The position numbers were made by a program, and so were the translations under genes. Of a stretch of DNA of 64,000 nt, positions 7,444 through 24,570 are shown one piece after another; the stretch's first letter is position 1; each line of letters starts with the position of its first letter. The notes under the pieces are model-generated. The model saw only the letters and a program-made list of their open reading frames with translations. It searched no databases and was not told where the DNA came from. This DNA is from Spirochaetota bacterium (GTDB lineage: Bacteria; Spirochaetota; UBA12135; COTS27). The DNA is taken from contig AP019861.1 of the NCBI GenBank assembly GCA_013426755.1, forward strand, positions 2,387,271 through 2,451,270, in the 5' to 3' direction.

Positions 7444-7531
7444 AAATATTTGACATTGCAGTAAAGTCTGTACTTGTTTTATTTTCAAGTCATGTGATCT
7501 GTGAGTTTTGTTAAGAACGCTACCGAGAGCT

Positions 7532-8452
7532 ATGAAAGCAGGACCATTAAAACGCCTCATTAAAGAACTCGATAGCCTTCCCTTAAATCACAGATCACTT
7601 GAAATTATCAAAGGAGCTTTACGCAAAACATATCCAGATCAAGATACTACGTTCGCTCCTGCTGCGTCTAGGGAGGGAAGCCATAAACAAAACCCTGCAG
7701 TAACTGATCTCTCATCGCAAAATCATCTAAAAGCACTCACCGGGGGAAAGCTTTTAGAACATGAAACATTTACCATAGACCTAGACCGCGCCAAGCGCAC
7801 AGGTATACCAGAGATTATTTTTACGCAAAATAAGTCCATAAATCACGTTTCACAAATAGTCTCATCGCTAGCTAAGAGCGGACATAAAGACCTACTGCTA
7901 AGTCGTGTCACAGCAGAATGTTACACCCACTTAAAAAAACTAGAATCCAAACTAAGTATCAAATTCGTCTATCACGAATTAGGCAAAGTCCTCTACACAC
8001 AAGCTTTTAAAGAGCATATGCAAAAAACTCACCGTCATTTAAGGGCGCACACAACTTCTGTAATTACCGCAGGTTCGAGTGATATTGGGGTTGCTGAGGA
8101 AGCCGCTGTCATATTAGAATGCATGGGGGCACGTGTAGAGCGCATTTACGATGTGGGTGTGGCTGGTCTTAATAGATTGTTTAACCATTTAGATGCGATC
8201 AATAAAACACAGTTAGCACTGGTTATTGCTGGGATGGATGGGGTATTGCCGAGTGTTTTAGGTGGGCTTGTACCTATACCTGTTATTGCTATTCCTAGTT
8301 CGGTTGGATATGGAGCGCATTTGGGAGGATTGGCGTCGCTTTTAACGATGCTTAATTCTTGCGCACCTGGTGTGACCGTTCTTAACATTGACAATGGGCT
8401 AGGAGGAGCGGCTTTGGCACTTAAGATCTTAAATACTTTTACGACCCGCTAG
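7532..8452 (+). CDS. larB: LarB-like pyridinium-3,5-biscarboxylate mononucleotide synthase
   Basis: LarB carboxylates and hydrolyses nicotinic acid adenine dinucleotide in the first step of nickel-pincer cofactor synthesis (used by lactate racemase and other LarA-type enzymes). Seen: ITAGSSDIGVAEEA, YDVGVAGLNRL, VIAGMDGVLPSVLGG and MLNSCAPGVTVLNIDNG, where the cysteine of NSC is the conserved catalytic residue of the family. The C-terminal AIR-carboxylase-like domain is complete. An extra S/Q/N/K-rich segment lies around residues 42-67, between the short N-terminal helix and the first core strand. I chose the ATG at 7532, preceded by GAGAG, over an in-frame TTG at 7508. No larA, larC or larE is nearby. 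Confidence 0.9.
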   Translation: MKAGPLKRLIKELDSLPLNHRSLEIIKGALRKTYPDQDTTFAPAASREGSHKQNPAVTDLSSQNHLKALTGGKLLEHETFTIDLDRAKRTGIPEIIFTQNKSINHVSQIVSSLAKSGHKDLLLSRVTAECYTHLKKLESKLSIKFVYHELGKVLYTQAFKEHMQKTHRHLRAHTTSVITAGSSDIGVAEEAAVILECMGARVERIYDVGVAGLNRLFNHLDAINKTQLALVIAGMDGVLPSVLGGLVPIPVIAIPSSVGYGAHLGGLASLLTMLNSCAPGVTVLNIDNGLGGAALALKILNTFTTR

Positions 8453-11366: not shown

Positions 11367-12704
11367 TCAAACACTCTTCCAGAGACTAAGAAAGGCTATT
11401 GTTCGACTCTTATCATAACGCTGACGTGAAAGCGCTAGCGCCTCTCCAGCCAATTGTACCAATCTGCCCCGTCCTGGAAGATTTTTCAATAATATCCCAG
11501 GCATCGCAGCATAAAGACGGTAGCGCGGATGATACCATTTCCAGACGCCGCGCAGACCCTTCAATCCAAGTAACATAACATTATACACCATATACCGTAC
11601 TCCGCTCTGTTCGTGTGAAAATAACCCTGCACGATAATAACGATCCACTGCATTGGCAAAGGTTCTACCGTCTAAAATAGTACGTTTTGTATAAATTGAG
11701 AATACTTTGAAATAAAACTTTTCATAGATAAGAAATATTTCAGAAAACTGGCTCTTTATATCGGCTGCTTTAGGGACATTCCCACATCTAAACATATATT
11801 GCAGCGCTTTCCAGTAGTGTTCTGAGAAGTGAATTTCACTTAAAAAAGGGTCTTCAACTTCCAAATTACGTAGAACTCGCAATTTAGCTAAAAACGTTGC
11901 CGTATAAGCGCGCGTGAGAATCAGATAAACCGCCCCACATATCAAATACGTCTGCCATAACGTCCGCCAGATGCGTACTAGGGCAATTGAATGACTTTGC
12001 AATGCAGATTTTTTTCTAAGCAGCCGATTAAACTCACGTTCTGCCTGAACGAGAGCAATGCCTTGGGTGAACAGAATCTGCAACGCCTCCGCAGCAGTGA
12101 ACACAGGTCTCTTAGAAAAAGGAATCTTAGCAAGAACCGTATTCGCTCCCCATAACACGCGATGCCCCCACTTGAGTTCATACCACTTCGGCAAGCTTGG
12201 AAGAGTGTATAAGTTACTTTCACATACGACCTTAATAAGCCGTACGCTAGTATTTAATTTTGTTTTAAGACCATAGATCACAGTAGCAATGAGTTGTGTC
12301 AAGTAAGATTTTTGTAACGCGCTCATATCCTTAATAACAACAACTATTTCATAAGGAGCATAAAGTTTTTCAGTTCCACTGTGATCTGTAAAACATCCCG
12401 CTTCACCTCGTCCATACACTCCCCCTAAGATAATGGCAACGATTTTAGCCATCGGACAACGACATTCGAAACTATAAACTAACGTCTTCAAATCACGATT
12501 AATCCGCTCTTCTAGATGAGAATATTCGTAATACGTAAATCCATAGCTCCCGCCACTACGAGCATCTGCTGTAGAGTGTGTGCGAACAGATAAGTGATCT
12601 CGCTGCGTGGAATTTTGATGGGTTGCTACCGGTGCTAAAACGGATGGAGTCGTTTTTTTAACCGATGGACTGTGCAGCGGTGAATCATGCGTGAATTGAT
12701 TCAT
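11367..12704 (-). CDS. Nucleotidyltransferase-like protein in polysaccharide/partner-switch operon (function unknown)
   Basis: Last gene of the 17.5 to 11.4 kb operon. I do not recognise a named family with confidence. Around residue 90 the segment AIILGGVYGRGEAGCF, followed after a short loop by YEIVVVI, resembles the glycine-rich G(S/G)xGRGE strand and acidic strand of minimal nucleotidyltransferase-fold proteins found with exopolysaccharide loci. The second acidic residue of the usual D-x-D is not clear, so activity is doubtful. The remaining 300 residues are basic and probably helical, with one hydrophobic stretch (LWQTYLICGAVYLIL). The N-terminal 50 residues are S/T/H-rich and unstructured-looking. 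I took the ATG at 12704, preceded by GAGA, rather than the in-frame GTG at 12725. Confidence 0.6.
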   Translation of the reverse strand: MNQFTHDSPLHSPSVKKTTPSVLAPVATHQNSTQRDHLSVRTHSTADARSGGSYGFTYYEYSHLEERINRDLKTLVYSFECRCPMAKIVAIILGGVYGRGEAGCFTDHSGTEKLYAPYEIVVVIKDMSALQKSYLTQLIATVIYGLKTKLNTSVRLIKVVCESNLYTLPSLPKWYELKWGHRVLWGANTVLAKIPFSKRPVFTAAEALQILFTQGIALVQAEREFNRLLRKKSALQSHSIALVRIWRTLWQTYLICGAVYLILTRAYTATFLAKLRVLRNLEVEDPFLSEIHFSEHYWKALQYMFRCGNVPKAADIKSQFSEIFLIYEKFYFKVFSIYTKRTILDGRTFANAVDRYYRAGLFSHEQSGVRYMVYNVMLLGLKGLRGVWKWYHPRYRLYAAMPGILLKNLPGRGRLVQLAGEALALSRQRYDKSRTIAFLSLWKSV

Positions 12705-12766
12705 ATTAAAATCTCTAGCTAGCACATATTAAAAAAAACCTACAAAACAAACACAATCATTTACGG

Positions 12767-14224
12767 TCACGCCCATTTAAGGAATCTCCGTAAAAATATC
12801 TTTGTAATTGTCCGCAAATATTTAAAGGGCATTTTATGGTTCGAGAAATAAAGTTCATTGATAACAAATTGTTCGTCTTCATCGATAACTGGATCGGTCA
12901 TTTCACTGAACCAGAACACCCCTGGTTCATAACTGTCCATCATTCTGATCGTCTGTTTATTGTGAGTGGTCGCTTCGAGCGGACAATTCCCAACAAGCCG
13001 TAATTTCCCACTTAGAACGTCTTTAAGCAATTCACGTTTGTCTAAGAAGAACTGCATAAATATCCATTTGCCCACGCTGCCGCGTTCAAACGTATACGAC
13101 CAGCGTTCGCTAATCTCAAATCGTTTATTGAGATAACAAAGCACACGCTTTCTGTAAATAGAATAATAATCTGTCGCAAAAGCAAGGTAATACCAGTAAA
13201 CGGGTGTCTGGACTAACAGCAGGATGAGGGCAAGTGGAACTTCCCATAAATATCGAATAAAACCCAGTTTGTTTTTCTGCCACACACTACCAGCAATGTG
13301 TTCATCCTCGAAGTCAACGACATGCCCACTGGGAATGTGAATCAGTGTTTTATTGTAAACGATGGCATCTCTAATACTGAGCCATTTGCCTAAGTAGGTT
13401 TTGGGAAGAATAATCGAATCGACGACCTGTGTTCCTTCATCGACAACGACTTCATCTGACAAAATAGCACCCTTGCCGATAATACAATCTGCTTGAATAA
13501 CGGCGTTAGCACCGATAAAGAAATTTTCTTTGAGGATCGTATTTTTCTTTAAGATTGTTTTTTCACCCATAAGTAATTTGTCATTTCTGGCATGCGCCGT
13601 GGCGGCTGGTGGTGTTAACCCGAAATAAGTTGGAAAATCATTCAAAATACGCATCGATAACGAATAGTAATCTTTGCAATTTTTAATAGGAATGGAAGAG
13701 ATTTTTTTCGTGGCGTAAAGTTGGCTAAAATAACGTTGCTTTTTTGAGGGCATGATCTTCTTAGGCAATACGAAGCGCGGCGGTTTGAGAACACCCCAAA
13801 AGAAATCTTTCGTTGCCTCAGTTTTAGCCGTTTGACAGAACATGGCTTTAAAGTCATCGCTTTTAGTCTGATTGTAAAACATAAAACCGTAGCCATAGGT
13901 GTAGTACACGGGCTCAGTGCCGTACCAGAAGCTTTTATTTTTAACAAACGCCGTCTCTATCGTATCTTCACTGCGAATAAGATTGAAAGAAACATCGATT
14001 TTGCTTTTGTATTTATTGTTCGACGCCATGAACCATTTCTCGACTGCGCCCGCTGATCCTTCGGTAACTAGACGCAGTTTCTTAATGCCCATCATTATAA
14101 ATAATTCTAACAAATAGCCAATAAGGGGCTTATTGACAATGGGAATGAGTAGCGGCTCTGTACCTGGGAAGAACTTTGTAATCCATTCGGTTGTATGGTT
14201 TCTAAATATCATGAGGCCTTTCAT
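12767..14224 (-). CDS. Fusion: sugar-nucleotidyltransferase-like N-terminus, left-handed beta-helix, degenerate sugar transferase C-terminus
   Basis: Residues 1-130 look like an NDP-sugar pyrophosphorylase-type Rossmann domain (MKGLMIFRN, PIVNKPLIGYLLELF) but lack the canonical GxGTRL signature, so catalysis is doubtful. Residues about 225-300 form hexapeptide-like repeats (LKKNTILKENFFIGANA, ADCIIGKGAILSDE), as in GlmU/GlgC-type proteins. A hydrophobic segment near 330-360 is followed by a sugar-transferase-like end: LLKDVLSGKLRLVGNCPL and YEPGVFWF correspond to the LxxVLxGxxSxVGPRP and KPGxTGW motifs of polyprenyl-phosphate sugar transferases, but several conserved residues differ. Strong ribosome binding site AGGAG 8 bases before ATG. 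It follows the STAS gene after a hairpin. The probable job is synthesis or control of a surface glycan. Confidence 0.72.
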   Translation of the reverse strand: MKGLMIFRNHTTEWITKFFPGTEPLLIPIVNKPLIGYLLELFIMMGIKKLRLVTEGSAGAVEKWFMASNNKYKSKIDVSFNLIRSEDTIETAFVKNKSFWYGTEPVYYTYGYGFMFYNQTKSDDFKAMFCQTAKTEATKDFFWGVLKPPRFVLPKKIMPSKKQRYFSQLYATKKISSIPIKNCKDYYSLSMRILNDFPTYFGLTPPAATAHARNDKLLMGEKTILKKNTILKENFFIGANAVIQADCIIGKGAILSDEVVVDEGTQVVDSIILPKTYLGKWLSIRDAIVYNKTLIHIPSGHVVDFEDEHIAGSVWQKNKLGFIRYLWEVPLALILLLVQTPVYWYYLAFATDYYSIYRKRVLCYLNKRFEISERWSYTFERGSVGKWIFMQFFLDKRELLKDVLSGKLRLVGNCPLEATTHNKQTIRMMDSYEPGVFWFSEMTDPVIDEDEQFVINELYFSNHKMPFKYLRTITKIFLRRFLKWA

Positions 14225-14300
14225 TATATGATCTCCTAATAATGCTGGTAAATAGTTCTAAAAATAGTTCTAAAAAATGTTTTTATCTACGAGTGACAGC

Positions 14301-14334
14301 GGAGTTCTCTTTATTTCTAAGAAAACAGAACTCC
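14301..14334. repeat. Intercistronic hairpin downstream of the STAS gene
   Basis: Perfect 8-bp arms GGAGTTCT and AGAACTCC enclose an 18-base loop that can itself pair (TTTCT/AGAAA). It begins 1 base past the STAS stop, inside the operon, and precedes the fusion gene by about 75 bases. On the transcript (minus strand) no T-run follows immediately. It may set the relative amounts of STAS protein and the downstream enzymes by partial termination or mRNA processing. Confidence 0.6.
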
Positions 14335-14335
14335 T

Positions 14336-14665
14336 CTAAAGCGTGTCAATTGCTGTGTTAAGATTATCGTAAATATCAAAGATGCGATGTGCTTGTGTGA
14401 TTTCAAAAACCAGACGCACCTTCGGACACAGTCCGACAAGTCGCAATTCTTTTTTATTTTCACGAATAGACTTCAAACACGAGACGACCGCGCCGAGTCC
14501 TGTCGAATCAACAAAATTCAAATGTGAGAAATCAAAGACAAAATGACAAACTTTATTGTTCCATTTCATAAATGTTTCTTTAAAGTCGCGCGCATTGGTA
14601 GCGTCTAATCGACCTTCAAAGCGAACAACTCCCACTTCATCTATATATTCAATATCTACTTTCAT
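14336..14665 (-). CDS. STAS-domain anti-sigma-factor-antagonist-like protein
   Basis: Single STAS domain, 109 aa. The motif DFSHLNFVDSTGLGAVV holds the phospho-acceptor Ser54 of SpoIIAA/RsbV-type proteins (DSxGLG). In known partner-switching modules such a protein binds an HATPase kinase when unphosphorylated and is released when phosphorylated; a PP2C phosphatase resets it. Both activities are present in the product of the gene two positions upstream (15709-17502), so they are very likely partners. It lies between two sugar-transferase-type genes, not beside a sigma factor, suggesting that glycan synthesis rather than transcription is the direct output. AGG 10 bases before the ATG. Confidence 0.93.
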   Translation of the reverse strand: MKVDIEYIDEVGVVRFEGRLDATNARDFKETFMKWNNKVCHFVFDFSHLNFVDSTGLGAVVSCLKSIRENKKELRLVGLCPKVRLVFEITQAHRIFDIYDNLNTAIDTL

Positions 14666-14715
14666 AACGATATGACCTATCTTAAAAAATAATGGTTAAT
14701 AATGAGGTTACCTTT

Positions 14716-15645
14716 TTAATAAATAGCTTTTCCAATCATAATGAAAAAACTGATCTTCATTAAAACAATTGTGTAATTTGCCCATGTTAAATTTCTAATA
14801 TGCTTAAGATCAAAATACCCATAACGATCGCGAACAACAAATGAACGCATATCTTTATCTAAACTGCTATCGGGGTGAAGCATGGCTGCGAGGTGGTTCT
14901 TTTTAGCCTGTGGCGTCTTACTTGTGGTATCGTAATGATTTAATGCACTACTTCTTAAGTATGCGAGGCCTGGTTTCAAATGAAGGCGCATTCTATCGGT
15001 AAGCGTGTAATTAAATGTTTGATTCGCCGCAATGGGGTGTGGTCCTAACAAACTCATATCTCCTAGCAGGACATTAAATAACACGGGTATCATTTCTAGC
15101 CGTGTGAAGACTAGGATTTTACCTATGAATGTGAGGTCGCGCTGTTCTGAGACACGGAAGATTTTTTCTTTGATACCGGTAGTTTCATGTGTCATAAACA
15201 AAGGCAACAAATTATAAGTCGAAGTGGTGCGCTGTGTTCTAAATCTATACATTCTAAACAGTTCGCCATCTTGCCCGATGCATTTCTTTCCATAAAAGGC
15301 ACAGCCACTACCCTCCATGCTAACTAAAAACATAAACGTGATCGTAATAGGAATCAAAGCAATGATCAGTATTAAAGCAATGCTTATATCCAGCAATCGT
15401 TTTAGCGCATAGCTCGTTAAAAATGCAGCCCGTAAAAAGAAGTCACGCAAATCAGCTTTAGAATTGATCTTAAAGAGATGTGATTTACGCCGTTTGTAAA
15501 AAAAGATGGTTTGACGAAGTTCATTTCTCTGGATATCGTAATGATCTTTAACCGCGTTCATAACGTTTAGGGTACGACTACTAAGTCCCGTAAGATTTTC
15601 ATCGCGTAAATTCAATTTTTTCATATTCATATTAGCAGGAGGCAT
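14716..15645 (-). CDS. Bacterial sugar transferase (initiating polyprenyl-phosphate glycosyl-1-phosphate transferase type)
   Basis: Membrane enzyme of the WcaJ/PglC/ExoY superfamily that transfers a sugar-1-phosphate from a nucleotide sugar to undecaprenyl phosphate, starting surface-polysaccharide synthesis. Seen: cytoplasmic N-terminal part (1-75), YALKRLLDISIALILI leading into a hydrophobic hairpin (about 78-108), YRFRTQR, LTFIGKILVFTRLEMIPVL near 175, and NVLLGDMSLLGPHPI near 192. The usual SLVGPRP reads SLLGPHP and the usual RxTSLDELP reads RLEMIP, so two catalytic-site motifs are altered and the substrate may be atypical. Only the family's C-terminal catalytic core is present, without the long four-helix N-terminus of WcaJ. 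ATG at 15645 has no ribosome binding site; in-frame ATGs at 15630 and 15624 are alternatives. Confidence 0.85.
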   Translation of the reverse strand: MPPANMNMKKLNLRDENLTGLSSRTLNVMNAVKDHYDIQRNELRQTIFFYKRRKSHLFKINSKADLRDFFLRAAFLTSYALKRLLDISIALILIIALIPITITFMFLVSMEGSGCAFYGKKCIGQDGELFRMYRFRTQRTTSTYNLLPLFMTHETTGIKEKIFRVSEQRDLTFIGKILVFTRLEMIPVLFNVLLGDMSLLGPHPIAANQTFNYTLTDRMRLHLKPGLAYLRSSALNHYDTTSKTPQAKKNHLAAMLHPDSSLDKDMRSFVVRDRYGYFDLKHIRNLTWANYTIVLMKISFFIMIGKAIY

Positions 15646-15708
15646 TGAACTATTTATTAAATAACTAGGTTACAGTAAGGGTTAAAACAAATTAACTGAT
15701 GATTGTGA

Positions 15709-17502
15709 TTATGGATTATCTGTTGTGAGCAGTGGCAATTTCTTATTAGGCGGCACATGAAGTTTCGAATGGAGCTGTTCATTGTTAGCAGATGCTGCCA
15801 GTACGGCCGTCTCCTTAGCGTTGTGGTCATAATTTTTTAAATATTTTTCCTCTTGTTCTAATTCGTCTTTTATAAGAACGATGACGGTTTCATTGGTGTC
15901 TTCATAGCGTTTACTATAAAATCGTGAGGCTATGGAAGCAATGATAAGAATACCGCGACCAGAATTAGCGAGTTGGTCTTGGGGACGATAGCGTTTTTCT
16001 TCGAGAACGTTATTGAAATTCCAATCTTTACCCTTGTCATAAAGTTTTAACGTGACACTGTCCTCTTTAACATCATAAGAGACTTCAACGACAATCGTTC
16101 CCGTACTACGGCCTTTAAATCCATGTGAAATGATGTTATTGAGATATTCATTGACCGCAAGTTCGCTTTTTGTGGCGAGCAGATCACTGTCCGTCCACTT
16201 TTTGATACAATGTTCTATTTTCTTCCCAAGGGCAGCGACATTGATTAAAAATGAATTGATATAAAAAACTTCTCTGTAATTAGAAAAATAGGTGGCTGTA
16301 TTTTCTAATTTGAGGAGGGCAAAATCATCGGTCATTACTTTAAAGCCATTGTCATGAAGTAATTTTTTTATCATTTGCGGCATAAGGTACATATGAAAAG
16401 CGTCGCGTGCGTTCGTTTCTATAAGTTCGAGCAATTTTTTAAGTCCGAGTTGTTCTCCTTTATCATTCATACATTCGAAGACGCCATCTGTATACATGAC
16501 GAAGACCGTCTCTTCATCAAAGGCAAAGACCTCTTCGTCTTTTTTATCATATTCAGAATCAGGGAACCATCCGAGCGGACAACCTCCTTTCTGCCCGACA
16601 AATTGGGCTCGGCCTGTTTTCTTATTAAATGTGAGGAGGGGCGGATGTCCTGCATTGTAGACGGTCATCTTTTGATGCTGCAGATCAATGACCGAGCAGA
16701 GAATCGTAATATAACTTTGTTCGAACAATGTCTGTGTGATGATAGCATTGAGCCGTGTGAGGAATTCATGGGGGTAGTATTTGTCCTTGTCCGTGATCAT
16801 AACAAGACTCTGAATAAGTGATTTGACAGCAGTCATAAGTAAGGCGGCATGGACGCCATGTCCTGAAATATCCCCCATATACACAAGGTATTTATCATTG
16901 CCGAGGTCTAGAATGTCATATAAATCGCCACTGACTTTACTAGAAGGCTCATAAATAGATACACCTAGGAAGTCTTTTTTGTGTACAAACCATTCTGGGA
17001 GGAGGTATTTTTGAATTTCTGAGGATAAATTGAGATCGTGGAGGATATCTTGATAAAGTTTTTTGATATTGCGTTCTGCACTACGAATCTTGATCACGTT
17101 TTCTACCCGTGACAATAATTCTACTTCATTGATAGGTTTTTTAATATAATCTACGGCACCATATTTGAAAGAATAGCGAATCGAATCGTCATCTATAAGT
17201 GACGTCAATATAATTACAGGCAATTCAGGACATATTTTATGGATATATTCACACACTTCAAATCCTGTCATCTCGACGAGCATAACGTCAAGTAAAACAA
17301 CATCGTATTCATTTTCCTCTACTTTTTTGATTGCTTCTTTGCCGCTGGAACAAGAGTCATATTCCATATTGTATTTAAAAAGGATTTTTTCTAGGATATA
17401 GACATTGACATTTTCATCATCGACGATGAGAATTTTGATGTTTTTTTTGTCTTGCGATTGTTTGAGTTGTGTCTCGAGTTGTTTTTCCGCTATTGGTTTC
17501 AA
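15709..17502 (-). CDS. Response regulator with PP2C phosphatase and HATPase kinase domains (RsbU/HsbR-like)
   Basis: Three-domain regulator. Residues 20-140: receiver domain with Asp28/Asp29, phospho-acceptor Asp72 (VVLLDVM), LTS and Lys121 (IKKP). Residues about 155-390: SpoIIE-type PP2C with the metal-binding aspartates visible in SGDLYD, GDISGHGVHAAL, YTDGVFE and TDDFALL. Residues about 420-540: GHKL serine-kinase-like domain with N-box AVNEYLNNIISHG, G1 YDKGKDW and G2 SGRGILII. All three look active. The order REC-PP2C-HATPase matches Pseudomonas HsbR, which switches its STAS partner HsbA; the STAS protein here is two genes downstream. Start is TTG with GAGG 9 bases upstream, and no ATG lies near. 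No cognate histidine kinase is encoded next to it. It heads the five-gene operon. Confidence 0.94.
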   Translation of the reverse strand: MKPIAEKQLETQLKQSQDKKNIKILIVDDENVNVYILEKILFKYNMEYDSCSSGKEAIKKVEENEYDVVLLDVMLVEMTGFEVCEYIHKICPELPVIILTSLIDDDSIRYSFKYGAVDYIKKPINEVELLSRVENVIKIRSAERNIKKLYQDILHDLNLSSEIQKYLLPEWFVHKKDFLGVSIYEPSSKVSGDLYDILDLGNDKYLVYMGDISGHGVHAALLMTAVKSLIQSLVMITDKDKYYPHEFLTRLNAIITQTLFEQSYITILCSVIDLQHQKMTVYNAGHPPLLTFNKKTGRAQFVGQKGGCPLGWFPDSEYDKKDEEVFAFDEETVFVMYTDGVFECMNDKGEQLGLKKLLELIETNARDAFHMYLMPQMIKKLLHDNGFKVMTDDFALLKLENTATYFSNYREVFYINSFLINVAALGKKIEHCIKKWTDSDLLATKSELAVNEYLNNIISHGFKGRSTGTIVVEVSYDVKEDSVTLKLYDKGKDWNFNNVLEEKRYRPQDQLANSGRGILIIASIASRFYSKRYEDTNETVIVLIKDELEQEEKYLKNYDHNAKETAVLAASANNEQLHSKLHVPPNKKLPLLTTDNP

Positions 17503-18478: not shown

Positions 18479-19396
18479 TTAGTCTTCATTGAAGCGAAGT
18501 TTGATGATATATGAGTATTTATTGACTGAGTTGGCAGTTTCTATAAGTTCGATCTTGACCACGCTTTCGTATGCATGGGTTACTGGGCTGTCATTGCCTG
18601 GGATTGAGATATCAATGGCACGATCGGCGTCAAAATTTTTTTCTTCATATCGCAATTGAAAATCCCTAGGCGCCTTTAACCTAATCGATACGGGAGTATT
18701 ATTATGATTAGTGAGCTGTGGTACAACTATTTCATTGGGAGGGATGATGTCTGTTGTTACGGTGACGTCAGAGATTCCCTGTGTAATATTTACAAGCATA
18801 TCTGCATAATTGATCTGAAATACAGGTCGCTTGATAACAAAATTTATCACAAAGGCTAGTGTATGGAATTGTAAACTTAGCTCATCTCTTAAATAAAAGA
18901 GAGCGGTTATTGTACCGCCCATACTTCCTGCTGGCTCCATCATGTATAGATAACAGGGGTCACAAGGTACTGTTTCACGCATCTTTGATGACTGATTTGT
19001 GACAAAGAACTTATATCCTGCAGGGGGATTATCGATTTTGATTTGAAATACGACGTTAGAATCAATATTGGGAACTGAATTTATTGTGAAAGTTTTCCTA
19101 TGTTTATCATACGCTATTCCATTGGGTGAAGCACTTTGAGAATTGCTAAGGTAATCTGTCTCTTTTAATGGAATACCTACTTCTAGGTAGGCAGGTACAA
19201 ATTCTCCTCTACTTGTTTCGGTCAAAAGGCTAATATTGCTATATTGTACCGAATCTTCGATCTTAACCTGTGTAAGTGGGTCAGGAAGTGAGTTTTCGTG
19301 TATTACCATTGTGCAACCTATGAGGATGCTAGGTATTAGGATGGTCTGCGCCCATACTATCGTTTTTTGTAAAAATTGCTTGTCCACTGCCCACAC
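18479..19396 (-). CDS. Putative lipoprotein, function unknown
   Basis: N-terminal hydrophobic segment ending SILIGCTMV, a lipobox-like site with cysteine at about residue 28, predicts an exported lipoprotein; spirochaetal lipoboxes are relaxed. The rest (about 275 aa) looks rich in beta strands, with N, D and S in loops, and resembles no family I can name. A CDPC near 143 could form a disulfide. The only nearby starts are GTG at 19396 and another at 19387; neither has a ribosome binding site. It stands alone, convergent with the redoxin gene and about 290 bases downstream of the cytochrome gene. A short direct repeat, TAGGCTAACT, lies just past its stop. Confidence 0.7.
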   Translation of the reverse strand: MWAVDKQFLQKTIVWAQTILIPSILIGCTMVIHENSLPDPLTQVKIEDSVQYSNISLLTETSRGEFVPAYLEVGIPLKETDYLSNSQSASPNGIAYDKHRKTFTINSVPNIDSNVVFQIKIDNPPAGYKFFVTNQSSKMRETVPCDPCYLYMMEPAGSMGGTITALFYLRDELSLQFHTLAFVINFVIKRPVFQINYADMLVNITQGISDVTVTTDIIPPNEIVVPQLTNHNNTPVSIRLKAPRDFQLRYEEKNFDADRAIDISIPGNDSPVTHAYESVVKIELIETANSVNKYSYIIKLRFNED

Positions 19397-22383: not shown

Positions 22384-22830
22384 ATGGAAATAGAAGAAAT
22401 TATAAAAACACTGCCGCATCGCTATCCATTTTTGATGATTGATCGGGTGGTGCACTTAGACAAAGATCGGATTGTCGCTATAAAAAATGTCAGTGCCAAT
22501 GAGCCTTATTTTGTAGGACATTTTGTAGAAGAAAAGATCATGCCCGGTGTTTTAATCCTCGAGACAATGGCACAGGCCTCAGCTATTAAAGCCATTAAAA
22601 GCCGTAACCTTGTCAATCCATCATTTTATCTACTCAGCATCACGCATGCCAAATTTCGCCATCAAGTCAAACCCGGTGATACGCTCCGTATCGAAGCATT
22701 GGAAACACATTCTAGTGGAACACGGCTTAAATTTGATTGTCAGGCGTTTGTAGAAAAAAAAATGGTCTCAGATGTGAAATTCCTAGCCATGTTCACAGAC
22801 AACGCAGAACCCTCTTCAAAACCCGCCTAG
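22384..22830 (+). CDS. fabZ: 3-hydroxyacyl-ACP dehydratase
   Basis: FabZ dehydrates 3-hydroxyacyl-ACP in fatty-acid elongation. The 148-aa hot-dog-fold protein has LPHRYPFLMIDRV near residue 10, EPYFVGHF with catalytic His46, and MPGVLILETMAQ with catalytic Glu60. The usual FPGNP after GHF is FVEEK here, a small divergence. No ribosome binding site is visible before the ATG. In Gram-negative bacteria fabZ often lies between lpxD and lpxA-lpxB. Here lpxB follows on the same strand after about 290 bases but lpxA and lpxD are absent, so the cluster looks reduced. Confidence 0.95.
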   Translation: MEIEEIIKTLPHRYPFLMIDRVVHLDKDRIVAIKNVSANEPYFVGHFVEEKIMPGVLILETMAQASAIKAIKSRNLVNPSFYLLSITHAKFRHQVKPGDTLRIEALETHSSGTRLKFDCQAFVEKKMVSDVKFLAMFTDNAEPSSKPA

Positions 22831-23121
22831 CTTATCACAAGAACCGCCGTAGTCTTGCTTATTTATTTTGATTTTACTTAGGTTTATTTAGTCATAACAA
22901 CCATCTCCTTTTGACTTCCATATGACAATCTTAAATACAGACAAGCTTAAATACAGACAAGCCGTTCATACTGCTAAGTAAAATTCTCTATCAAACGATA
23001 TTAACAGATATGTGCACTGCAGATTTACGGGGCTTCGAATACTTATAGCAGGTCATAAGTCCATAAAGCAGGTCATCACAATCCATAAAGAAGTACTCCT
23101 ATCGAGCTATTTTCCTAAGAG

Positions 23122-24570
23122 ATGCGGCGCTATCATATATTAATCACATGTTTTGATGTGTCAGCAGATCATCACGCTGCCAGACTCATTCATTATTTAC
23201 AACATATCTGGCAAGACCGCGTCGTGTGGTCAATAATGGGGGGCGAAGAAACGTTAAAATTAGCCCAAAAATACAATCACGTGCACGTCTTAGAACATTC
23301 TGCTACGAATAGTGCCATTGGTTTATCAGAAAGTGTCTTAGAGGTCTTCCGTAGTCCGCTACTTTCAACATCGGTACGGCGGTTTTTAAAGCATGGATAC
23401 CACAAAAACGCACGGACTGACTGGGGAAAGGTGGACCTCTTCCTCCCCTTTGATGGACAAGGACGCAATCTCTCCTTAGGCAAATTTGCTTATCAATTAA
23501 AGATTCGGACAGGATATTTCTTCCCTCCCATTGTCTTTATCTGGGGAAAGTGGAATATAAAAAAAATGCGCTATTTCAACCCCATTTTATGTGTCTTCAA
23601 GCCCAATTGGATGCTGTACCGTGACCATCATGTCGACGCAGCGACATTTGTCGGACACCCTTTTGCCTACTATCTACTAGCCAATGATACAAATGCGTTA
23701 GCTCAAAAACACTCCTTACCCCTTACAGAAGCCTCTCCGTCATCCCATACTAGCTCTCCGCTCCACCACTTACCGCAGCACCAAGCACCCGCTAAGAATA
23801 ATCACCCAAACCAAAACCGAAGTATAGAAGCGTTTAACCATCTCATCGCCCAGTATAACATTGAGGAGCGAACGGAACAATTTAAAAAAAAATTGCGAAT
23901 CCGTGCCAATGAATGGGTCATCAGCCTCTTCCCAGGCAGTCGCCGTCAAGAAATCCGTAAAGTAACACCTATTTTACTAAAAACACTTCAAACCCTTCAA
24001 AATACGTATCCCCATGGCGTAGAACTTCCCTCGCACACAGGAAAACCCAAACGTTATCGTCTTCGATTCATCTTAGCACTCTCGCATAAACAATTTCTAA
24101 GACCGCTGTTGAAATTACGAATGCAAGCAAACATTGATAAGCGAACGTTACCTATTGTGTACGGTGCTTACGAAGAAACACTCAAAGTCTCACGAATGGC
24201 ATTGACATGTTCTGGGACGGTAACCTTCAAAGCATCCTTTCTCGGTGTGCCGCATGTTATTTTATACAATATTTCATGGCTATCTTACTTAGTCGCTAAG
24301 ATTGTCGTCAAAACGCCTTATATCGGCATGCTCAATATCCTTCATAACCGTTTGCTCGTACGCGAACTTATCAATCACGATTTATCCGTTAAAAACATTA
24401 TTGCAGAAATTACGCCTTATTTAGAAGACGAGAACTACTTTAAAGAACAAAGCCGTAAACTTATCACTTCCGCTAAAATGGTCTGCCCGCCAACTTCTAT
24501 AACTTCACATCCATTTAAAAACATTGAAACAGCACTGGCTAAGGTTATTTCTTCCTCTTCCTCCTCCTAG
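23122..24570 (+). CDS. lpxB: LpxB-like lipid-A-disaccharide synthase (GT19), divergent
   Basis: GT19 glycosyltransferase, 482 aa (usual about 380). Family marks: FVGHPFAYYL near 176, LFPGSRRQEI near 264 (nucleotide-phosphate loop), CSGTVTFKASFLGVPHVILY near 363 and LVAKIVVKTPYIGMLNIL near 392. Differences: the N-terminal GExSGD loop is replaced by CFDVSADHHAA, and the glutamate expected after SGT is a lysine (SGTVTFK). Residues about 198-235 are an inserted S/P/H/Q/N-rich block, and the C-terminus ends in six serines. Known enzymes join UDP-2,3-diacylglucosamine to lipid X. Without lpxA, lpxC or lpxD nearby, this one may act in another outer-membrane glycolipid pathway, or lipid A genes may lie elsewhere. 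Confidence 0.8.
   Translation: MRRYHILITCFDVSADHHAARLIHYLQHIWQDRVVWSIMGGEETLKLAQKYNHVHVLEHSATNSAIGLSESVLEVFRSPLLSTSVRRFLKHGYHKNARTDWGKVDLFLPFDGQGRNLSLGKFAYQLKIRTGYFFPPIVFIWGKWNIKKMRYFNPILCVFKPNWMLYRDHHVDAATFVGHPFAYYLLANDTNALAQKHSLPLTEASPSSHTSSPLHHLPQHQAPAKNNHPNQNRSIEAFNHLIAQYNIEERTEQFKKKLRIRANEWVISLFPGSRRQEIRKVTPILLKTLQTLQNTYPHGVELPSHTGKPKRYRLRFILALSHKQFLRPLLKLRMQANIDKRTLPIVYGAYEETLKVSRMALTCSGTVTFKASFLGVPHVILYNISWLSYLVAKIVVKTPYIGMLNILHNRLLVRELINHDLSVKNIIAEITPYLEDENYFKEQSRKLITSAKMVCPPTSITSHPFKNIETALAKVISSSSSS

Follow-up and report, generated by a model that had tools for sequence, protein, structure and literature searches.

A five-gene locus in a 64,000-nucleotide stretch of a Spirochaetota genome (hereafter the window; positions 2,387,271 to 2,451,270 of contig AP019861.1, assembly GCA_013426755.1) is, on balance, probably a diverged version of a conserved module in which a partner switch is tied to the initiation of a Wzx/Wzy-type surface polysaccharide, and in the window this switch would act on a non-catalytic complex. 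The module itself is real and conserved, and its arrangement is not a matter of chance because both the gene set and its contiguity recur in several phyla. The copy in the window is best read as a pseudoenzyme descendant, either repurposed or decaying. Five open reading frames (ORFs) make up the locus, running REG, GT, STAS, FUS and NT2 along the minus strand, and all of them were confirmed at the coordinates given in a preliminary description of this DNA:

15709..17502, minus strand: REG, 597 amino acids, a receiver followed by a SpoIIE-like PP2C phosphatase and a HATPase_c_2 (SpoIIAB/RsbW-like) kinase, assigned from Pfam and motifs.
14716..15645, minus strand: GT, 309 amino acids, similar to monotopic phosphoglycosyl transferases (PGTs; Bac_transf, PF02397) and predicted to be catalytically dead, from Pfam and active-site columns.
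14336..14665, minus strand: STAS, 109 amino acids, with phospho-acceptor Ser54 in DSTGLG, from Pfam and motif.
14225..14335, minus strand: the 111 bp that separate STAS from FUS, containing an 8-bp inverted repeat GGAGTTCT...AGAACTCC whose hairpin is not significant as an RNA structure (z = -1.38).
12767..14224, minus strand: FUS, 485 amino acids, a degenerate nucleoside diphosphate-sugar pyrophosphorylase, a left-handed beta-helix and a degenerate PGT, from a family profile.
11367..12725, minus strand: NT2, 452 amino acids, similar to Pol-beta-type nucleotidyltransferases with a degenerate active site, from a fold match and motifs.

Relatives of the locus were found by scanning genome contigs, non-exhaustively, with an alignment of REG, its same-family orthologue and one distant relative. 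GT, STAS and FUS are contiguous and in that order in the window and in five other genomes, comprising four Cloacimonadota (G403, G404, G395 and G397) and one metagenome-assembled genome (MAG) labelled Armatimonadota (G394), with the longer series GT-STAS-FUS-NT2 of the window found again in the cloacimonadote G403. A UBP4 MAG carries REG, a glycosyltransferase, STAS and FUS consecutively. Sphaerochaetaceae hold STAS, NT2, FUS and GT in one exopolysaccharide locus, and REG is there too where the contig extends far enough. One such locus (L076) also encodes Wzy_C, a Polysacc_synt flippase, a Wzz/BY-kinase-like protein, a WecG-type transferase and glycosyltransferases, with Wzy and Wzx adjoining REG, and inspection of the G394 locus revealed flippase, polymerase, chain-length and export genes. 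Several of these genomes are MAGs, so their phylum labels, and comparisons made across phyla, carry a binning risk; Cloacimonadota and Sphaerochaetaceae each contribute several assemblies obtained independently. Direct searches with the window's FUS, NT2, GT and STAS, which diverge fast, failed to reveal a linked operon in 40-100 relatives, and the locus initially looked like an orphan, a view that the REG-alignment scan overturned. The preliminary description had staked its case on the gene order being conserved in some relative, and the order is kept in distant ones. Its label of a polysaccharide-initiation operon is true of the module in these relatives and, for the window genome, holds only as ancestry; the module there stands apart from any glycosyltransferase cluster.

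The association also holds when genomes are chosen without regard to FUS. A full-length FUS is encoded by 10 of 12 genomes picked solely for a REG relative, versus 4 of 393 Spirochaetota, these four being the window genome plus three Sphaerochaetaceae in which REG and STAS share the locus with FUS. Among the five families, the correlation of pairwise identities is highest for STAS and FUS (Spearman 0.91; range 0.67-0.91), a value that fits contact between the two proteins and is no proof of it, since shared phylogeny contributes.

The switch half of the module is intact in the window. REG matches the Pfam domains Response_reg, SpoIIE/PP2C and HATPase_c_2, and retains the receiver residues (D28/D29, D72, T100 and K122), the PP2C residues (D193, D211, D339 and D392/D393) and the kinase motifs (N-box E452 and N456, and GRG at 513-515), such that the phospho-accepting Asp of the receiver, the metal-binding Asp of the phosphatase and the Glu/Asn of the GHKL N-box all lie within one protein. 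STAS, whose gene is linked to that of REG, is matched by Pfam at 1.7e-21, is 49% identical to the STAS protein of the cloacimonadote G403, and places Ser54 in a loop that fits D-S-[ST]-G-L-G. The window genome, a single 2.68-Mb contig with an estimated completeness of 76%, contains a single STAS match, and REG alone exceeds the family cut-off for HATPase_c_2; REG and STAS are the sole partner-switching pair found in it. The preliminary description had read the same motifs in one regulator, the same serine in STAS, and a partner switch without a linked sigma factor, and Pfam and our motif check bear these readings out. No sigma factor was found in the window operon or in the relatives' loci examined; unlinked sigma factors, including alternative ones of the window genome, were not searched.

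A conventional partner switch directed at a sigma or anti-sigma factor encoded elsewhere, in the manner of HsbA-FlgM-FliA or CrsA-CrsR-RpoS and with the sugar genes as passengers, would account for the domain order of REG, which is that of HsbR and CrsR (PMC6482189), and for the assignment of STAS by NCBIfam to the anti-sigma-factor-antagonist superfamily. The repeated linkage of STAS to a PGT and FUS in distant lineages, STAS/FUS gaps of 9-39 bp in six genomes and the co-occurrence of REG and FUS argue against it, and we consider it an unlikely explanation of the locus.

The enzymatic half of the module has fared differently in the window. GT matches Bac_transf at 1.9e-27 and keeps the re-entrant membrane helix with its DX12P motif (D86...P99). 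Its active-site columns read R134, V179, E184, M185 and H203, versus K, R, D, E and R in all 15 module relatives, and the Asp-Glu dyad is invariant in the 24 other spirochaete PGT homologues. The Lys, the two Arg and the Asp-Glu dyad are the catalytic and substrate residues described for PglC (PMC12802240). The "sugar transferase" of the preliminary description is apt as to family and membrane helix, but all five of these residues have been replaced.

FUS appears non-catalytic throughout its family. Pfam recognizes only hexapeptide repeats in it, and its domains were assigned from profile searches. A family profile matches the UTP-glucose-1-phosphate uridylyltransferase 8x7s at 4.6e-27 across the nucleotidyltransferase and beta-helix parts and PglC (8e37) at 1.5e-7 at the C-terminus, while a profile restricted to the C-terminal part matches PglC and WbaP (E about 2e-4). 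FUS proteins of three relatives have PF02397 matches, one of them above the cut-off. No GxGTR motif is seen near the N-terminus in any of the 16 FUS sequences (one being a fragment of the C-terminal part), and neither an aligned DE dyad in the PGT domain nor GPRP occurs in the FUS of any genome. The monotopic PGTs PglC and WbaP share their fold and membrane helix with GT and resemble the C-terminal domain of FUS, whereas their catalytic dyad and substrate residues are missing from GT of the window and from every FUS protein. Judged from these sequences, FUS is a family of pseudoenzymes. The fusion of nucleotidyltransferase-like and sugar-transferase parts proposed earlier is indeed a fusion, but one with degenerate domains and no catalytic motif in any member.

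NT2 has no Pfam match. Its structural model (predicted local distance difference test score, pLDDT, of 60 overall and higher in the core) matches the folds of the aminoglycoside nucleotidyltransferases AAD(9) (2.5e-4) and ANT-4'' (1.2e-3). The motif G-G-Y-G-R-[GS]-[ED] ... N-[DN]-x-D of 12 relatives reads G-V-Y-G-R-G-E ... A-P-Y-E in the window, so that the G-G/S motif and the D-x-D catalytic acids, intact or nearly so in all 12 relatives, are not so here (G-V and P-Y-E). A test for preferential loss of the NT2 active site over general loss was negative. Among the module members compared, the active sites of GT and NT2 are lost in the window copy only.

These losses bear on the model first put forward, in which the phosphorylation state of STAS would directly control an active sugar transferase of the operon, and with it the presence of a surface glycan in the window organism. 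The gene order, the regulator motifs and the occurrence of the same arrangement with an intact PGT in relatives agree with it, but the five replaced residues of GT and the non-catalytic character of FUS across its family argue against it, as does the census of other candidates. A PF02397 search of the window genome returned GT alone, and a PF00953 search returned one protein, the polytopic PGT MraY, identified from the HHHFELLG motif at its C-terminus and from the genes around it. Neither superfamily yielded a competent initiating PGT for surface polysaccharide in the window genome. Gating of an active transferase in this organism now appears improbable. A still more remote prospect is that GT or NT2 remains catalytic with a rearranged active site, as might be suggested by the acidic Glu184 at the nucleophile position of GT and by the YGRGE retained in NT2. 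Against this, GT has replacements at the lysine, at both arginines and at the second position of the dyad, and NT2 lacks the glycine and acid positions conserved in its relatives.

The locus might instead be a decaying relic of a lost polysaccharide pathway, with GT and NT2 degenerate and the other genes without selected function. This reading draws on the lost active sites, on the very long GT branch (3.8 substitutions per site), on the absence of any PF02397 protein other than GT, and on the distance of the module from glycosyltransferase clusters. However, the five long ORFs are uninterrupted and all five have coding-like codon usage, the switch motifs are intact, and in GT the DX12P helix persists, as do 32 of the 75 remaining invariant positions. 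The intact ORFs, the membrane helix and these conserved positions favour retained structure, and we give the relic only a small chance, whereas the long GT branch is compatible with either a persisting non-catalytic complex or decay.

Several observations weigh against the favoured reading of a diverged module whose switch acts on a non-catalytic complex. The length of the GT branch makes decay possible, and the loss of active-site residues (0 of 6 columns kept, versus the 32 of 75) is not significantly worse than that of other invariant columns and is only suggestive (Fisher p = 0.08). The AlphaFold model of FUS, built from a 4-row alignment, was poor (pLDDT 47) and was not used. A REG orthologue with 46% identity belongs to the MAG G001, the sole other family member compared, and in this genome (83% complete, with broken contigs) no STAS, GT, FUS or NT2 was detected. 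The 3' end of its REG gene is followed instead (L084 3-437 and 474-3317, G001:C98) by a 947-amino-acid glycosyltransferase that has no close counterpart in the window genome; an assembly break falls inside the REG gene, which is split over two contigs.

We hypothesize that the module operates as follows. The receiver of REG (D72) would take up a two-component signal, and the STAS serine would be phosphorylated by the GHKL domain of REG and dephosphorylated by its PP2C domain. In one phospho-state, the direction of the switch being presumed as well, STAS may bind FUS as a non-catalytic PGT-like adaptor and, through FUS or directly, alter the state of the membrane-anchored PGT, whereby formation of the undecaprenyl phosphate-linked sugar could be licensed or blocked without transcription. 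In the relatives, the switch would accordingly be predicted to gate polysaccharide initiation through STAS-FUS-PGT contacts. With the active sites of GT and NT2 gone in the window and no other surface-polysaccharide PGT found, the switch there would act on a non-catalytic, membrane-bound complex of GT and FUS, perhaps with NT2, that is kept as a scaffold or regulator. Because its sugar-making parts have lost their active sites, the switch in the window would have to control something other than sugar transfer itself, or be a leftover. With less than even confidence, we further suggest that the two-component switch of the window lineage controls an all-pseudoenzyme membrane complex (GT, FUS and NT2) as an output repurposed from a polysaccharide-initiation machine, and that FUS in the catalytic relatives is a dedicated adaptor for STAS gating of the PGT.

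Both the switch type and two-component control of an initiating PGT are already known. REC-PP2C-kinase proteins set the phosphorylation of a STAS partner, and phospho-HsbA binds the diguanylate cyclase HsbD as well as its kinase (PMC6482189). The HsbR-HsbA system of Pseudomonas aeruginosa and CrsR-CrsA of Shewanella oneidensis likewise combine receiver, PP2C and GHKL domains in one protein with a single-domain STAS partner (PMC6482189), and the likeness to HsbR/HsbA drawn in the preliminary description holds for both the REG domain order and the STAS partner. They differ from the window locus in that their known outputs are FlgM/FliA, RpoS and cyclic di-GMP, and in that no linked PGT, FUS or Pol-beta nucleotidyltransferase is described. 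SypE-SypA of Vibrio fischeri is similar in having a regulator with receiver, serine kinase and PP2C domains, a STAS partner and a polysaccharide locus, with SypA following SypE in the pathway and having no known target (PMC10120452). SypE differs from REG in its kinase-REC-PP2C order and in that no FUS-type pseudoenzyme is described, and SypA, unlike the proposed role of STAS, is described as leading to transcription (PMC8256260).

Post-translational control is represented by Myxococcus xanthus, where EpsW, a receiver, when phosphorylated activates EpsZ, the initiating PGT, apparently through stimulation of EpsZ dimerization (PMC12802240). As in the proposed module, a two-component output acts on the initiating PGT of a Wzx/Wzy pathway; in contrast, a lone receiver binds a large PGT directly, and no STAS protein, kinase/phosphatase switch or pseudo-PGT is described. 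HmpU/V/W of Nostoc punctiforme and all4160 of Anabaena resemble the module as STAS-based control in polysaccharide-linked systems (PMC8256260), but the Hmp phosphatase and kinase are separate proteins with an unknown target, and all4160 is a glycosyltransferase with an N-terminal STAS domain rather than a PGT module. The literature searched, which covers few subscription journals, yielded no account of the FUS family or of a PGT and a pseudo-PGT adaptor with a STAS gene between them. The earlier statement that such an arrangement had not been described in a spirochaete stands within that literature, but the arrangement also occurs in Sphaerochaetaceae, Cloacimonadota, UBP4 and an Armatimonadota MAG. 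For STAS switches linked to polysaccharide loci, the position of this STAS gene in several phyla, flanked by the initiating PGT on one side and a pseudo-PGT adaptor on the other, supplies concrete candidate targets that lend themselves to testing. The module also points to a way, additional to that of EpsW-EpsZ, in which two-component signals could directly affect the initiation of surface-glycan synthesis, and the window copy offers a natural case in which the switch survived and the enzymes died.

Further arrangements were observed among the relatives. In genome G017 (L054 5722-8502, G017:C41), a spirochaete STAS 37-41% identical to that of the window has a PAS-PP2C-kinase immediately downstream and a glycosyltransferase-like gene on its upstream side; with STAS beside the kinase only, and neither GT nor FUS, this locus was rejected as a module candidate and is possibly a simpler version of the switch. 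A Spirochaetaceae MAG (G401; L149, L150 and L151) carries two to three copies of a GT-FUS(-NT2) module, with FUS in L150 split into two ORFs by a frameshift or an assembly error. A type I phosphodiesterase/pyrophosphatase-like protein of ~385 amino acids near FUS or STAS (L147 7421-8569 in the Armatimonadota MAG and L076 15203-16375 in Sphaerochaetaceae) may be a further accessory member of the module.

Within the window locus, the genes are spaced by 63 bp (REG/GT), 50 bp (GT/STAS), 111 bp (STAS/FUS) and 41 bp (FUS/NT2), and NT2 begins with a GTG codon, such that its true start may lie further downstream. Promoter- and terminator-like sites are no more frequent than in shuffled sequences. Elsewhere in the window, genes for a FabA/FabZ-like dehydratase and LpxB (22384-24570) suggest that the organism probably makes lipid A, though no surface-polysaccharide PGT was found. 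Positions 7508-8452 encode an AIR-carboxylase-like protein (PF00731, possibly LarB-type) with an N-terminal extension, and positions 18479-19396 encode a probable lipoprotein of 305 amino acids without a Pfam match.

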